A stretch of 64,000 nt of DNA from Thermococcus thermotolerans (GTDB lineage: Archaea > Methanobacteriota_B > Thermococci > Thermococcales > Thermococcaceae), in the NCBI RefSeq assembly GCF_024707485.1, contig NZ_CP102602.1:930001-994000 (forward strand), written 5' to 3'. This document shows, piece after piece, positions 38,428 to 45,797 of the stretch. Under the pieces are notes generated by a model that searched no databases, had not been told where the DNA came from, and saw only the letters and a program-made list of their open reading frames with translations. How positions within the stretch are numbered: the first letter of the stretch is position 1; each line of letters opens with the position of its first letter. A program made the position numbers and the translations under genes.

Positions 38428-39231
38428 TCACCAGAACATTTCATCAAAGTCGCTGGCGTTCTCTATTCCATTGGGAGCCACTATGTGTACCGGCTTGTTT
38501 ACGTCCGAGAGCTTGACCTCATCATGAACCGTCATGTGGACTTCCACAGGTTTCTCAGAGATCCCCGTCATCCTCATCACGACGTCCATGTACGTCTCTA
38601 TGAATACGGGAGTCCCATCGTCCCTGAGGTGAACCTCGACCCAACCGGATTTCGTGTCCACGGTGACGTTGCCGGGGAGGTTGCCCCAGGCCTCATTGAG
38701 GTAGTCGGTCTGATTGGTGGCGTTAACGAATTCCCAGAAGGTGACGTTGACGCGGAAGGCGTAGCCATCGGTCAGCTTCTTGATGGTCACGTTCTTCCTC
38801 TTCAGGAGGTTCTCGATGTAGTCGACGTTAAGCGAGCCCCTCGCCTGGGTGGAGATGTCATTATTGCTGGGGACGTTGTACCATTTTCCATCAACTTTGA
38901 GGTACACAAGGGTTCCGTTGACAAAGTACGGCCAGTTGAAGGTTATGTTCATCCCCATCGTGTGCATGTTCATGGTCATGTTTCCTGTTTCGAGGCCACT
39001 GGTTTTGTTGAACATCCCGATAACACGGCCGGACATCGTTATGTTGACCGTCCTGTTGGTTATCGGCTCCGTAAAGTGCATGGTCATAGAGAAGTTCTGG
39101 TCGTACCTGGCAGTCTCAATGTCGTTCAGGGCATTCAGAACCTTATCCTTGGTCAGACCAGCGTTTTCCCCTATACATCCGCTTGCCAGTACTATTAGAC
39201 CAACCAGCAAAAGCGCCATGACCCGCCTCAT
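38428..39231 (-). CDS. Lipoprotein with LppX/LolA-like domain
   Basis: A 267-residue surface lipoprotein. The signal peptide ends LIVLASGC, so Cys near residue 19 is the lipid site. The mature part contains many N-x-S/T sites and alternating beta strands (MTMHFTEPITNRTVNITMSG, WYNVPSNND) like the beta-sheet half-barrel proteins of the LppX/LolA or DUF6612 kind; these carry lipids in bacteria. ATG 39231 follows GGGAGGT. A similar lipoprotein is encoded at 40289-41041, with a PrsW-type protease gene between them. Confidence 0.7.
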   Translation of the reverse strand: MRRVMALLLVGLIVLASGCIGENAGLTKDKVLNALNDIETARYDQNFSMTMHFTEPITNRTVNITMSGRVIGMFNKTSGLETGNMTMNMHTMGMNITFNWPYFVNGTLVYLKVDGKWYNVPSNNDISTQARGSLNVDYIENLLKRKNVTIKKLTDGYAFRVNVTFWEFVNATNQTDYLNEAWGNLPGNVTVDTKSGWVEVHLRDDGTPVFIETYMDVVMRMTGISEKPVEVHMTVHDEVKLSDVNKPVHIVAPNGIENASDFDEMFW

Positions 39232-39337
39232 GGTACTACCTCCCATAGTCTCGCCAGAATATCCACGAATAGGTTTAAATACTTTTTCTATTCAGATTTT
39301 GCAAACTACTGAGAAAAGTTAGCAAAAAGTGGAAAGC

Positions 39338-39538
39338 TCAAAGTGCCTCGAACTTCTGGAGGAATATCCTGAGGTCTGTCCTAAACGGCTCTTCCGCGCG
39401 CTCTATCTCCTCGTTAAGGAGCCGAAGAAAATTTGTCTCATCCGTGGATTCCTCCCATAGGCGTTTTACGAGATTTTCCAGCCTCTCATAGTACTCCACG
39501 TAGGGCCTTGCCTCAAACAGAGCCTCTTTCAGTTTCAC
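39338..39538 (-). CDS. Small acidic helical protein coupled to PrsW
   Basis: A 66-residue, charged, probably fully helical protein (EARPYVEYYERLENLVKRLW near the start) with no cysteine or membrane segment. GTG 39538 overlaps the stop of the PrsW-like gene (GTGA) and has GGAGGG upstream, which supports it as a real gene despite its size. I do not know its function; a soluble partner of the protease is suggested by the coupling. Confidence 0.6.
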   Translation of the reverse strand: MKLKEALFEARPYVEYYERLENLVKRLWEESTDETNFLRLLNEEIERAEEPFRTDLRIFLQKFEAL

Positions 39539-40242
39539 ATCCCATCCCTCCTCTTGAACCAGTAGTACCACAGCCTGCCAACGTCCTCTGCCTGCCCCAT
39601 TATCATGAAGTATCGGAGTATCGCGAGGTTCACGAGTATCAGCAATATCAGGATTATGTTGTACGCAGGCACTTCTCGGCTCAGGAAGGCGTAGTAGTCC
39701 CAGATGAAGTGAAGGAGCATCGCGAGGAGGAAATAGGGCCTGACGGAGGTTACTTTGCCCTCAGCCTTCATCCCGTAGCCGACGCCTATGACCGCACTCC
39801 ATGCACCGTGGGCGAATGGGGTCAGGAAAGCCCTAACAATGGTTACCGAAATACCGTATCCCAGGCCGTAGAGAAAGTTCTCAGTTGCTGCAAATCCCAG
39901 ACCAGCCGCGACACCGTAAACAAGGCCGTCCATTATGCCGTCCATCTGGCCCGCTTTAAAGGGCCACCTTATTGCCAGCGCCTTGGCGGGCTCCTCAACG
40001 ATTCCCGCCACAAGGGCAACGTAAAACGCGGTCAGCGGAAGAACCGGCTTCACGATGCCTCCGATGGTAAGAACACTCTCCAAGATGTAGGCGATTCCAA
40101 CGGAGAGTGTCCCCCCGAGTATGAACGTCCCTACCACGTACTTTCTCGGTTCCGGCTCGTACTTATCGGCGTGATAGAAGTACCAGAGTATCACCAGAGC
40201 GGGAGCGTATGCAAAGAACACTATTGCGCTTAGGAAGTCCAT
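39535..40242 (-). CDS. PrsW family intramembrane metalloprotease
   Basis: A 235-residue membrane protein with about seven segments. It shows PrsW motifs: VEEPAKA (EExxK), GLGFAATENFLYG (FxxxEN), and histidines in TPFAHGAWSA and LLHFIWDYYA. Bacillus PrsW cuts an anti-sigma factor within the membrane; archaea have no sigma factors, so the target here is unknown. ATG 40242 follows GGTGAAGTGA. It is coupled by GTGA overlap to a small acidic gene and flanked by genes for two lipoproteins, which are possible substrates. Confidence 0.85.
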   Translation of the reverse strand: MDFLSAIVFFAYAPALVILWYFYHADKYEPEPRKYVVGTFILGGTLSVGIAYILESVLTIGGIVKPVLPLTAFYVALVAGIVEEPAKALAIRWPFKAGQMDGIMDGLVYGVAAGLGFAATENFLYGLGYGISVTIVRAFLTPFAHGAWSAVIGVGYGMKAEGKVTSVRPYFLLAMLLHFIWDYYAFLSREVPAYNIILILLILVNLAILRYFMIMGQAEDVGRLWYYWFKRRDGM

Positions 40243-40288: not shown

Positions 40289-41041
40289 TTAGCATTTGCC
40301 AAGAAGCTCCCCTATGTCGAGTCCCTGAGCTTGCAGGTAATCCACGAGAGGCTGGGGAGGCTTTACAGAGGCCGAATTAACGCTGGTTATCTCTATTTTA
40401 ATCTCATCAACCCAGCGTTCGTTGTCTTTCCTGTAGTATGCCTTCTGGAGTATCTCAACGGGGATGAGGTTTTTGGCCAGCTTTATTGTCACGGTACCGC
40501 TGTAGTCCTTTTCATTCCCCGCTTCGCTCCAGATGGTGTGATTAACTGTGAGGATATAATAGTCCCCCTCAGTTGTGAGCGTTGCATTTTCAAGGGGAAA
40601 GTCCTTCCAGAGGTTATCAAGAAGGGTTGAGTTCACTTTGGGTCCATTTCCATTCTCATAGCACGAAAACTGCCAGTCTACCAGACCACTTCTGTTGGTC
40701 AGTGTTACAAAGCCAGCTTTAGTTGTGTAGTAGTAGAGGGCATAGGCCAGCTTTCCAGTCTTGTTTGCTATGGTAATCGAGGATTTCATACCAGTCTCTT
40801 TGTCCAAGGAGACCCTGGAATAGAGCGTTGCTACAAGTTTAGTTCCGTTGTACGTTTTAACGTACATAACGTATTCATAGCTTTTTATTCCAGCAACTGC
40901 GCTTTCAAGCTGCTCCTTTGTAAAAGGTAGGTTTTGGGTTGTGGTTGTTGTCGGAGTGTTACCCCCCGAGGAGATGCACCCAGACACAAGAACCGTGAGA
41001 ACGAGCAGCACACCGATGATTCCTAGGTATTCCTTTCTCAT
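40289..41041 (-). CDS. Lipoprotein, related in plan to the one at 38428
   Basis: A 250-residue lipoprotein with signal peptide ending VLVSGC (Cys near residue 22) and a Gly/Thr-rich linker. The mature domain begins FTKEQLESAVAGIKSYEYVM and continues as alternating strands with N-x-T sites, parallel to TKDKVLNALNDIETARYDQN in the lipoprotein at 38428-39231. The two are probably distant paralogues of an LppX/LolA-like lipid or ligand carrier. ATG 41041 follows GGGTGATAG. Confidence 0.68.
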   Translation of the reverse strand: MRKEYLGIIGVLLVLTVLVSGCISSGGNTPTTTTTQNLPFTKEQLESAVAGIKSYEYVMYVKTYNGTKLVATLYSRVSLDKETGMKSSITIANKTGKLAYALYYYTTKAGFVTLTNRSGLVDWQFSCYENGNGPKVNSTLLDNLWKDFPLENATLTTEGDYYILTVNHTIWSEAGNEKDYSGTVTIKLAKNLIPVEILQKAYYRKDNERWVDEIKIEITSVNSASVKPPQPLVDYLQAQGLDIGELLGKC

Positions 41042-41859: not shown

Positions 41860-42144
41860 ATGCCCTATATTGGTTTCGCAAGGAGTCCTCACGGGCCGGC
41901 TAAAACTTATCAGCTCGTGCTCGGCGAGCTTGAAAAGCGGGGATTTTCCATCGGGTTTTCAAAACATCACTGGGCCGGCGACCTGCCATTCGGTCTGATA
42001 GTGGCCGAAACGGACAGGGGAGAAGTCGCCATAAGATGGGCGCTGGGTAGGGAGTTTACGGTAGAGCTTGAAGAGGTGGATGGAGAGACATACGACGAGT
42101 TCATTGAGGACACGCTTGAGTACACCAACGCGGATTCAGGGTGA
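41860..42144 (+). CDS. Small protein of unknown function
   Basis: A 94-residue mixed alpha/beta protein with no membrane segment or cysteine. It begins MPYIGFARSPHGPAKTYQLV and includes AETDRGEVAIRWALGREFTV. I do not recognise the family. ATG 41860 follows GGTGAG and a strong BRE/TATA pair, with a perfect palindrome at the start site, so it appears to be individually regulated. Its last 9 bp overlap the convergent HAD gene. Confidence 0.6.
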   Translation: MPYIGFARSPHGPAKTYQLVLGELEKRGFSIGFSKHHWAGDLPFGLIVAETDRGEVAIRWALGREFTVELEEVDGETYDEFIEDTLEYTNADSG

Positions 42145-42813
42145 GCGCTCCTGTCTTATTCTCTCTATCACGTCGAATATGCTCCACAGGTCGCGTATCA
42201 CATGGAGGTGCGGTATTAAGGCTAGCCTCTCGCGGTTCTTCTCAACGAACTTGGCGCTGAAGGGGAAGTAGTACCAGACGTATTCGGTGTTCTCGTCGCC
42301 GTGCCCTATAAAGCGCCAGGGCTTATCGTCAACCCACACGAATACCTCGTCCCCGTACTTCTCGCGGACGAGCCTGAAGGCCTCGTCTATCGTCATCTCG
42401 CGCCCGAAAACTATAACGTCGTCAAAGAGGTCGTAGATCCCCATCTCCTTGAGCCTTCTAACCTTCATACCATCTATGAAGTCCTCCGCCGAGAAAGAAA
42501 TTACTATGTGGCCCCCCTCTTTGAGCCGTTTGAGAAGTTCGGGGGCATCGTCGAGTGGTTTGGTTAGCTTTGCCCTCTCCTCAAACCATGTTTCAAAAAA
42601 CTTTGTCCTCAGAAAGAAGGGGGGCTTTGACTTCTTCCTATGGCTTCCAAAGGTCGGCCTCTCAAAGTAGTTCTCAATTTTGGTGAGCACCTTGGCCCAG
42701 ATGCCCTTGAACGGCAACCATGGATAGCGTCTCTCCAAAGCTTTCACGAATGCCTCCTCTATGCACGAGTACGTGTCGGCCAGCGTCCCATCGAAGTCGA
42801 AGGCTATTATCAT
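42136..42813 (-). CDS. HAD superfamily hydrolase
   Basis: A 225-residue HAD-type phosphatase. Motif I is FDFDGTLADT (nucleophile Asp near residue 6), motif II is VISFSAED, and motif IV is WVDDKPW. A helical cap of about 70 residues lies between motifs I and II. The family removes phosphate from small molecules such as sugar phosphates or phosphoglycolate; the substrate cannot be told. ATG 42813 follows GGGGGACAT. It is convergent with the small gene at 41860 and divergent from the phospholipase C homologue. Confidence 0.82.
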   Translation of the reverse strand: MIIAFDFDGTLADTYSCIEEAFVKALERRYPWLPFKGIWAKVLTKIENYFERPTFGSHRKKSKPPFFLRTKFFETWFEERAKLTKPLDDAPELLKRLKEGGHIVISFSAEDFIDGMKVRRLKEMGIYDLFDDVIVFGREMTIDEAFRLVREKYGDEVFVWVDDKPWRFIGHGDENTEYVWYYFPFSAKFVEKNRERLALIPHLHVIRDLWSIFDVIERIRQERSP

Positions 42814-43032
42814 GATGTCCCCCTCCAGCGTGGTGGATGGTGTGGCCTTTAAGCTTTGCCTTTATGACTCTCTCTTTTCTTGAACCACAAACACCACATC
42901 GGGCCAAATACCACAGCTTCAGACGACACCTTCCGACTCAAATGGAGTATACTTTGTAACTTCGGTAACTCGAAAGAGTTTTAACTTCTTTTAACCTCAG
43001 AGAAATCTGCCATCTGTTTGGAGGGGGATAAA

Positions 43033-44322
43033 ATGAAGAAGGTTCTGTCCCTGATAATAGCGCTTTTGGCCGTGTCTGGACTGGTCTCAGCATGGCCGAC
43101 AAATGGTCCAACGATGGACGATCCGATGAACGTCCACCAGAGGCTGACATACAAAGCGATCGAGGCTGTCTATCAGGACAACCCGGCCCTCGGAAGCATA
43201 CTGATGCAGTACAAGGATCAGCTCCTTTACGGTGCGTACGACGAGGACTGGACCGGTGGGAGCATAGACATCGGGGGCAAGACGTACACCATACAGAGCC
43301 AGTACCACTTCCTTGACCCCATGGACCACGCCGAGCTGTTTACCGTGGCCCTCCTTGGAGATCCGGACACATCTGCGGCTGACATGGCCCAGAGGCTCTA
43401 TGAAAAGGCGGTACAGCTCTGGAAGCAGGGCGACAGGGCAGGAGCGATGTATTACCTCGGCAGGGCGCTCCACATAATCGAAGACCAGGGCATGCTCATA
43501 GGGCACCAGACGCCGCACCTCTTTGAAGACCTTGAGCAGGAGAAGTACGTTGAGAACGCCCACGACTTCGTTGAAAACCAAATCTCACCGACAGTTGCGG
43601 ATGACATTCTGAACAACCGCGTCCCGCTCGACCTAACCCCCATAAAGTGGTGGCAGATACCTCAGGAGAAGTCCAGATTTATCCAGGGCTACGACATATA
43701 CCTCACGGACAACGAGAACGGGCACATGAGCCTCTCCAACGGCGTCGCCTGGGCGTACGCCGATCTCGCTGCACACAACTCCTGGAGGTACATGCTATAT
43801 TCGACCGGGAAGGACATCAACCTCTGGAGCGAATGGGGGCACCTCGGAAGCTACTTCTGGACGAGAACCCTCAGGAAGGGAGACTGGAGTGTCCTCAAGC
43901 TTGAGTTCAAGGGTGCCAGCTCGATAACCATAGTCTTCAAGGATATAGACATGCAGAACGCCTACTTCAAGACCCTCGGCTACGTCGAGATATACGATAA
44001 GAACTGGAACCTCATCGCTCGCTATGACCAGGACCCGAACCCGCTCGTTGATACAAGGGTCACCGTTCCAGGGGATACGGTTTACATCTACACTCACGTT
44101 GACAGCACTGCCTGGCTTGACAGCGACGTGGACGGATGGGCGATAAGGAACATCGAGCTCCATGCGAACTTCGACGTTAACTCACCGAGCGGTTTCAGAA
44201 CCCTCGACGGCAGGGAGTACAGCAAGGTTCAGTGGGCGGTTTATGAGACCATGCAGTATGACATCAGACTGCTCGCCGGCCTTATGGAGAAGTTCTTCGA
44301 GGACGTTGGCGTCTCAGGCTGA
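43033..44322 (+). CDS. Secreted zinc-dependent phospholipase C-like enzyme
   Basis: A 429-residue secreted protein. The signal peptide ends near Ala20, leaving Trp21 as the mature N terminus, as in Bacillus cereus phospholipase C, where Trp1 binds zinc. The other ligands can be matched: His35, Asp70, His92, His147 and Asp151 ([10 protein letters not shown]), His158, His177 and Glu181 (AHDFVEN). The B. cereus enzyme cleaves phosphodiester bonds of phospholipid head groups. Residues of about 275-390 form a beta-rich insert ([16 protein letters not shown]) absent from the B. cereus enzyme. The target could be foreign ester lipids or archaeal ether-lipid head groups. ATG 43033 follows GAGGGGGAT; single gene. 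Confidence 0.82.
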
Positions 44323-44456: not shown

Positions 44457-45797
44457 ATGGGTAAGCACTACATCCCTAACTCCGCAAGTAGGGAGGAGAT
44501 GCTGAAGGAAATTGGACTGTCCTCCATCGAAAGCCTGTTCTCGGATGTTCCCCAAGGGATGGTCAAAGAGTTCAATCTCCCCGAGGGAAAGAGCGAGTAC
44601 GAAGTCTTTCTTGAGCTCAGCGAAGCCCTCTCCAAGAATAAAACCATCCTTGAGATGCCCAGCTTCCTCGGTGCCGGAACCTATTTCCACTACATTCCGG
44701 CGCACGTCAAGTACCTAATAGAGAGGAGTGAGTTCCTTACGTCCTACACACCCTACCAGCCGGAGATAAGCCAGGGAATGCTCCAGGCGCTCTTTGAGTA
44801 CCAGAGCCTAATCGCGGAACTCGTCGGGCTACCAATAGTAAACGCCTCAATGTACGACTGGGGGACGGCTATGGCAGAGGCGGCTTTGATGAGCGCAAGG
44901 GTAACCCGGAAAAACAAGTTCGTGGTGCCGAAGCACCTCAGCCCGGAGAGGAAGAGAGTCCTCGAAACCTACGCCGCCGGCCCGGGCCTTGAGATAGTGG
45001 AGATACCCTGGGACGAAAACGGCCAGCTCGACCTTGAGAAGCTCAGGGAAGCAGTAGACGGAGCCGCCGGAGTGTACATCGAGGTTCCAAACTTCTTCGG
45101 CATACTTGAGGAAAACATCGAGGAAGTCGGGGAGATTGCCCACGAGGCAGGGGCGCTCTTCGTGGTGGGGGTTGACCCAACGATACTCGGGATTGTGGAG
45201 GCTCCCGGAGAGCTCGGTGCTGACATAGTCGTCGGAGAGGCCGCTTACTTCGGCAGCCCGATGAACTTTGGCGGACCGAGGGCCGGCATCTTTGCGACAA
45301 GGAACGACAGAAAGCTTATCCGTCAGATGCCCGGAAGGATAATCGGAATGACCAAGGACGCCGAGGGAAGGAGGGCCTTCGTCATGACGCTCCAGACGAG
45401 GGAGCAGCACATAAGGCGCGCAAAGGCCACCTCAAACATCTGTTCTAACGAAGCGTTGGTGGCGGTTGCAGCGGCGATACACCTCGCGACCCTTGGGCCG
45501 AAGGGCTTAACCGAACTCGGAGAGGTCATTCTCAAGAACACCGCATACCTCAAGAAGAGGCTTTCAGAGGTCGCTGAGATTCCCTTCGAGGGAATTAACT
45601 TCAAGGACGTTCTTGTGAGGTTCGAAAAGCCCTACAGGGAGATACACGAAGCCCTTCTTGAGAAGAACATCCACGGCGGCTACTACATAGGGGAGCGCTT
45701 CCCGGAGCTGGGAGAGAGCGCCCTCTTTGCCGCAACAGAAACGACGAGAAAAGAATGGGTCGATGCACTAATAGAGGCCCTCAAGGAGGTGGCCTGA
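44457..45797 (+). CDS. gcvPA: Glycine dehydrogenase (decarboxylating) subunit 1
   Basis: A 446-residue alpha subunit of the split P-protein of the glycine cleavage system, found in archaea and many Gram-positives. It pairs with GcvPB, encoded 1 bp later, to decarboxylate glycine and load aminomethyl on lipoyl-H-protein. Family segments seen are [36 protein letters not shown] and [13 protein letters not shown]. The PLP-binding lysine is in the other subunit. ATG 44457 follows GAGGGTGAT. The T- and H-protein genes are not in this window, so the system is split across the genome. Confidence 0.95.

Follow-up and report, generated by a model that had tools for sequence, protein, structure and literature searches.

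The closest described systems to the protein reported here are two zinc phospholipases C (PLCs), namely the phosphatidylcholine-preferring enzyme of Bacillus cereus (1AH7) and PlcB of Listeria (8CQM), both of which begin, in their mature form, with a tryptophan and possess an H-x3-D and an H-x3-E pair in a chain of 245 and 238 residues, respectively. In the B. cereus enzyme, His14 is a further ligand of the third metal. The metal ligands of B. cereus PLC are given in the available text of PMC10420013, and the available text of PMC10576769 presents Asp55 as the proposed general base and Trp1 as the residue that caps a metal. In the same text, this 2023 structural paper states that homologues of the Listeria enzyme have so far been found in Bacillus and Clostridium only. 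The clostridial alpha-toxin type of PLC combines the PLC fold with a beta-sandwich domain, and its C2-like beta domain aids membrane binding (PMC8634861, available text).

Here, we describe a zinc-PLC-like gene of the archaeon Thermococcus thermotolerans (genome of 2.07 Mb) located in a window of 64,000 nucleotides (positions 930,001 to 994,000 of contig NZ_CP102602.1), in which all coordinates below are counted. The proposal that this gene encodes a zinc-PLC-like protein that is real, conserved and secreted and carries a CUB-like domain as an insertion largely holds, the PLC kind itself being known. We further propose that it is probably a secreted three-metal (zinc-type) phosphodiesterase with a PLC fold, which would act on lipid head groups as an accessory exoenzyme; its metal content, its catalysis, its lipid substrate and the role of its inserted domain are what we infer. 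No paper on this Thermococcus protein was recognised in the open-licence literature, and the word stems of phospholipase and lipase are absent from the available main text of the papers on the T. barophilus secretome and the T. gammatolerans genome.

Gene, signal peptide and metal-ligand positions

The gene (43033..44322, + strand) is complete. Its open frame, which starts with ATG and is assigned on PF00882 family evidence, comprises 429 residues plus the stop, and a ribosome-binding site, GGAGGGGG (43020..43027, +), lies 5 bases 5' of the ATG; the promoter scan was of bacterial type and of little meaning for an archaeon. Residues 1-20 (43033..43092, +) form a predicted signal peptide that ends with LVSA. 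The corresponding positions -3 and -1 were scored by a script as A-x-A or V-S-A in 21 orthologues, and the remaining two read VSA. The mature protein begins with WPTNGP, such that its expected N-terminus is W21 (43093..43095, +), the counterpart of Trp1 of B. cereus PLC, in agreement with the sequence-only reading, which had the mature protein start with Trp.

That reading had also named nine metal ligands, of which eight (W21, H35, H92, H147, D151, H158, H177 and E181) stand, being identical in 23/23 full-length orthologues. The ninth, D70 (43240-43242, +), was wrongly picked and is replaced by D72 (43246..43248, +), which matches the proposed general base Asp55 of B. cereus PLC. Indeed, D72 is invariant in the 23 orthologues, and D70 is Asp in 22 of them and Tyr in the other one. 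In the profile alignment, G67-A-Y-D-E-D72 coincides with the G-x4-D of 14 archaeal PF00882 relatives, and the B. cereus chain reads G-I-Y-A-A-D55 at this place; on these two grounds we regard Asp72, and not Asp70, as the counterpart of Asp55. With D72 counted in place of D70, all nine ligand positions are occupied and invariant in 23/23 orthologues.

The other assignments are as follows, each with its B. cereus counterpart. H92 (His69; 43306..43308, +), within an H-F-x-D-P motif, H147 (His118; 43471..43473, +), D151 (Asp122; 43483..43485, +) and H158 (His128; 43504..43506, +) lie in the local profile alignment, which spans D72 to H158 only. H177 and E181 (His142 and Glu146; 43561..43575, +) were paired with the relatives in the global profile alignment. 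This global alignment did not place H35 (His14; 43135..43137, +) on the His of the relatives, and the H35 assignment is based on a direct reading of the B. cereus chain, with which an H-x5-[KR]-A-I-[ED] motif is common (H35-x5-K-A-I-E here, H14-x5-R-A-I-D there). Direct reading likewise sets H92-F-L-D-P beside H69-F-Y-D-P, Y-L-G-x3-H147-x3-D151 beside Y-L-G-x3-H118-x3-D122, and H177-x3-E181 beside H142-x3-E146. The H-x3-D and H-x3-E spacings noticed in the sequence-only reading are thus present, as H147-x3-D151 and H177-x3-E181.

One spacing differs from those of the described enzymes. The distance from D151 to H158 is 7 residues (D-x6-H) in 23/23 orthologues, versus 6 (D-x5-H) in the B. cereus and Listeria chains. 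Among 24 archaeal relatives, the 19 that start with Trp-His all allow a distance of 6 (one of them, L059, reads 4 or 6), and the five others comprise three that read 4, one that reads 7 (L063) and one without such a motif. The 7-residue spacing is uncommon and, because L063 has it too, not unique. We interpret the difference as one residue inserted into the loop predicted to carry metal 2.

Family membership, PLC fold and inserted domain

All 18 scanned orthologues match the Pfam family PF00882 with an E value no higher than 1 (best 1.5e-6). The family cut-off of 26.8 bits is passed by 11 of the 23 full-length orthologues, and the 12 below it include the window protein (17.4 and 19.2 bits in two scans). 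NCBIfam gave no family match, and the sequence searches of the PDB with the queries P0001 and A1 returned nothing credible. The profile-profile probability against the archaeal PF00882 set was moderate, being 72% in local mode (E 3.3e-5), 14% in global mode and 36% in a second run. A profile built from 13 archaeal relatives found the zinc PLCs in the PDB at E values of 2.7e-11 to 1.3e-6, and designed TPR proteins from 4.9e-5. These archaeal PF00882 proteins of other phyla (L045-L067) are secreted proteins with a Trp start, and the nine ligand columns are among the 12 columns invariant in the 13 that were aligned, an invariance that is partly due to selection since the 13 were chosen for their Trp-His start.

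With only four sequences as input, the structure prediction gave a poor full-length model (mean pLDDT 47.1, pTM 0.40). In a fold comparison of this low-confidence model, the first 13 rows were all zinc PLCs (Z 10.8-11.9), including those of Listeria (8cqm; Z 11.9, rmsd 7.3 over 153), B. cereus (1ah7; Z 11.6, rmsd 8.9 over 158) and Clostridium (2wxt; Z 11.6, rmsd 3.8 over 143), with matches that span model residues 24-428. The row after these 13 PLCs was a CUB domain (Z 7.3), and the CUB rows cover about residues 262-387. According to a warning of the aligner, Z values below about 13 can be of little significance for helical folds; a true PLC fold match is favoured by the fact that only one family stands above the CUB row, separated from it by 3.5 Z units. 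Plain Foldseek was weaker, listing CUB-containing chains first and one clostridial PLC fifth (E 2.4e-3). In the fold alignment, the identity to 1AH7 and 8CQM is about 18%, and the helical fold of the low-confidence model appears to be common with theirs up to the last helix. Together, the fold search, the profile alignment and the conservation support the view, already taken from the sequence alone, that the protein is a secreted PLC homologue.

In contrast to the Thermococcus protein, 1AH7 and 8CQM have no inserted beta domain. In the low-confidence model, the last helix (residues 398-424; 44224..44304, +) matches the end of the PLC chains. From this we regard the CUB/jelly-roll-like domain that precedes it (about residues 262-387; 43816..44193, +), delimited by fold comparisons and by a separate domain model, as an insertion into the PLC fold and not a tail; the beta-rich domain had been noticed before the last helix in the sequence-only reading, and is borne out at that place in this model. 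A beta domain next to a PLC fold also occurs in the clostridial alpha-toxin type, in which it is C-terminal and C2-like, whereas here it lies before the last helix and matches CUB and jelly-roll domains.

Predicted alone, the inserted domain reached a pLDDT of 71.6, and its best fold rows comprised Kremen (CUB, Z 9.5), GOLD domains (Z 9.2), CUB domains and the jelly roll of Tk-SP (3AFG), a Thermococcus protease (Z 8.5, rmsd 2.9 over 101, 12-14% identity; Foldseek E 5.8e-4). This Tk-SP domain, called C-terminal in a cited title, binds two Ca2+ (PMC3599501, available text). Seven of 18 orthologues matched the CUB family PF00431 with an E value no higher than 1 (best 0.019), the window protein having no listing at E up to 10 in the Pfam scan, and the inserted domain alone gave a best E of 0.41 against PDB sequences. 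Among the 94 Thermococcales genomes, the inserted domain was found in 23 full genes and four gene remnants, with one further weak match in G093 (E 4.9e-4, internal stop).

Distribution, decay and exchange of the gene

The complete gene occurs in 23 of the 94 Thermococcales genomes (22/61 in the window's genus and 1/3 in a second genus), and five of the 94 hold only its last 39-79 codons. Two further genome sets that also include the order, one from the phylum (115 genomes) and one of wider choice (201 genomes), gave no convincing match of the whole protein beyond these two Thermococcales genera. No relative of the zinc-PLC-like protein was detected in viral contigs, searched twice, nor did plasmids and phages give a match at E up to 1 with an orthologue (L014) as the query.

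The gene has constant neighbours, given here for context only. A divergent gene for a HAD-like hydrolase (42136..42813, -; PF00702, 48 bits) lies beside it at 22 of 23 loci, the remaining locus being on a 3.8 kb contig, and gcvPA, for a subunit of the glycine cleavage P-protein (44457..45797, +; PF02347), lies downstream at 23/23. In other genera of the family, these two genes adjoin each other without the zinc-PLC-like gene (57 bases apart in G012), suggesting that the empty arrangement is probably older than the gene-bearing one. A functional link to either neighbour is ruled out, as both adjoin each other in gene-less genomes too. The base composition of the gene (GC 0.553, GC3 0.751) matches that of gcvPA (GC 0.560, GC3 0.711) and gives no support to a foreign origin.

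For genomes that lack the full gene, we searched (tblastn, E 0.01) 40 stretches between or beside the neighbours: 32 came from the window's genus, which has 39 such genomes, and eight from other genera. This yielded five C-terminal remnants, one N-terminal-like piece and 34 stretches with no trace. The short piece, in G027, is probably an N-terminal remnant of the gene, which it resembles in that part at 33-52% identity (best E 4e-6). The decayed copies lie at the same locus in G072, G016, G023, G029, G041 and G027 (L028-L032, L087, L099-L103), and five of these six remnants have kept the 3' end. The C-terminal remnants, whose frames are open, adjoin gcvPA in 5/5 cases and the HAD-like gene in 4/5, the latter lying about 43 kb off in G023. 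In G070 (C2:271040-275680; L094), the HAD-like gene and gcvPA are separated by about 4.4 kb with no trace of the gene, and this gap may thus take up other DNA too. Other Thermococcales possess short proteins (frames of about 156-250 residues, e.g., L034 and L042-L044) that match PF00882; they cover only about positions 23-97 of the family and are not orthologues.

The window also encodes two probable lipoproteins, of 272 residues (38428-39246, -) and 250 residues (40289-41041, -), in which G-C follows the signal peptide. They have no Pfam match at E 0.001 and flank a gene for a PrsW-family protease (39535-40242). A small protein of 94 residues (41860-42144, +), with no Pfam match, is also found near the HAD-like gene in some only of the orthologous loci, which extend about 1.5 kb.

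The phylogeny of the zinc-PLC-like protein conflicts with those of its neighbours (joined; 22 taxa, 5/19 splits shared, AU p 3e-54) and of rpoB (23 taxa, 5/20 splits shared, AU p 5e-47). G063 and G044, sisters by rpoB (94.4% identical), are only 77.9% identical in the zinc-PLC-like gene, whereas G063 and G019 are 95.5% identical in this gene versus 85.0% in rpoB, and G040 and G017 97.6% versus 88.0%. Over 253 pairs, the identities of the gene and of rpoB correlate at 0.51, and the zinc-PLC-like gene, the faster of the two, is nevertheless the more alike in 57 pairs. Along gcvPA, the sliding identity between G063 and G044 ranges from 0.89 to 0.94, and it falls to 0.69-0.83 within the zinc-PLC-like gene. 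Several loci are mosaics (L012, L024 and L011 of G063, G044 and G019; L014 and L015 of G040 and G017), with the gene apparently swapped and gcvPA following rpoB kinship more closely. The tree conflicts, the pairwise identities and the sliding identity point to transfer between species, alleles appearing to move by recombination through the flanks. Since several of the genomes are drafts, individual cases could be due to mis-binning, but G017 and G019 each consist of one contig. The comparison covers rpoB and the joined neighbours, and we do not claim that the locus is special in the genus.

Where it is present, the gene is under purifying selection. The dN/dS ratio is 0.024-0.086 in eight pairs and 0.021 in a ninth, the dS of which is saturated, and from these low values we regard the protein as kept functional in the genomes that carry it. 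Loss at a fixed locus combined with the exchange of alleles makes a natural experiment on the ecological role of the gene.

Proposed function and alternatives

We propose that signal peptidase cuts off residues 1-20, thereby liberating the amino end of Trp21, which could cap one metal in the manner of Trp1 in the PLCs of B. cereus and Listeria. Metal 1 would be held by D72, H92, H147 and D151; metal 2 by H158, H177 and E181; and metal 3 by W21, D151 and probably H35. By homology, Asp72 would activate a water molecule, and the metal-activated water would cut, outside the cell, the phosphodiester between the lipid and its phosphorylated head group. The inserted CUB/jelly-roll domain would most likely dock the enzyme on its target or provide heat stability; by analogy, binding to membranes (as for the clostridial C2-like domain) or to calcium (as for Tk-SP) is possible. 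Most likely, the organism would employ the protein as an accessory exoenzyme that acts on lipids from other organisms or dead cells. The patchy presence of the gene, its remnants and its exchange lead us to favour an accessory role directed at the surroundings over a housekeeping one or one that the cell's own membrane depends on. If this is true, the characterised PLC family would be widened by a member with a built-in CUB-like domain from a hyperthermophilic archaeon, a heat-stable PLC would be on offer, and the cleavage of archaeal ether lipids would become testable.

The natural substrate of the same enzyme chemistry could be an archaeal ether lipid, from the cell's own membrane, shed vesicles or neighbouring archaea, which we regard as rather unlikely. 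The bond to be cut would be on the head-group side, where the ether links to the chains need not block the reaction, and the searched sets contained the gene in Thermococcales only, with its alleles exchanged within the genus. Against this, the available text of a review (PMC9319432) reports several lipases, including a phosphoinositol-specific PLC, to be less active on ether than on ester lipids, with diether lipids acted on before tetraether ones. As regards the upkeep of the own membrane, 39 of the 61 genomes of the window's genus lack the full gene, which is thus not needed. More speculatively, and with a low probability in our view, the protein could be an exoenzyme with which archaea attack the membranes of other archaea. 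It would then be a three-metal PLC that removes the head groups of ether lipids from competing Thermococcus or from vesicle- or virus-derived membranes, its alleles being swapped at one locus and the gene lost again as targets and resistance change.

We hold it improbable that the protein is a nuclease of the P1/S1 type, that is, a three-metal fold of the same kind acting on DNA or RNA for nutrient scavenging. The trinuclear zinc site of P1/S1 nucleases is indeed related and includes an N-terminal Trp, but their last pair is H-x3-D, whereas the H177-x3-E181 pair found in 23/23 orthologues is PLC-like. In addition, the best Pfam match is the PLC family, with no nuclease family at E up to 10, and no such nuclease is among the best 50 fold rows listed, which hold PLCs. 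As compared with the phosphodiesterase that we propose, it seems very doubtful that the protein has kept the PLC fold without catalysis and acts as a binding protein, of which the CUB-like domain would be the main part. The one-residue insertion between D151 and H158 in 23/23 orthologues could speak for such a loss; however, even orthologues with only about 72% protein identity retain all nine ligand positions unchanged, a constancy that an inactive site would not require.
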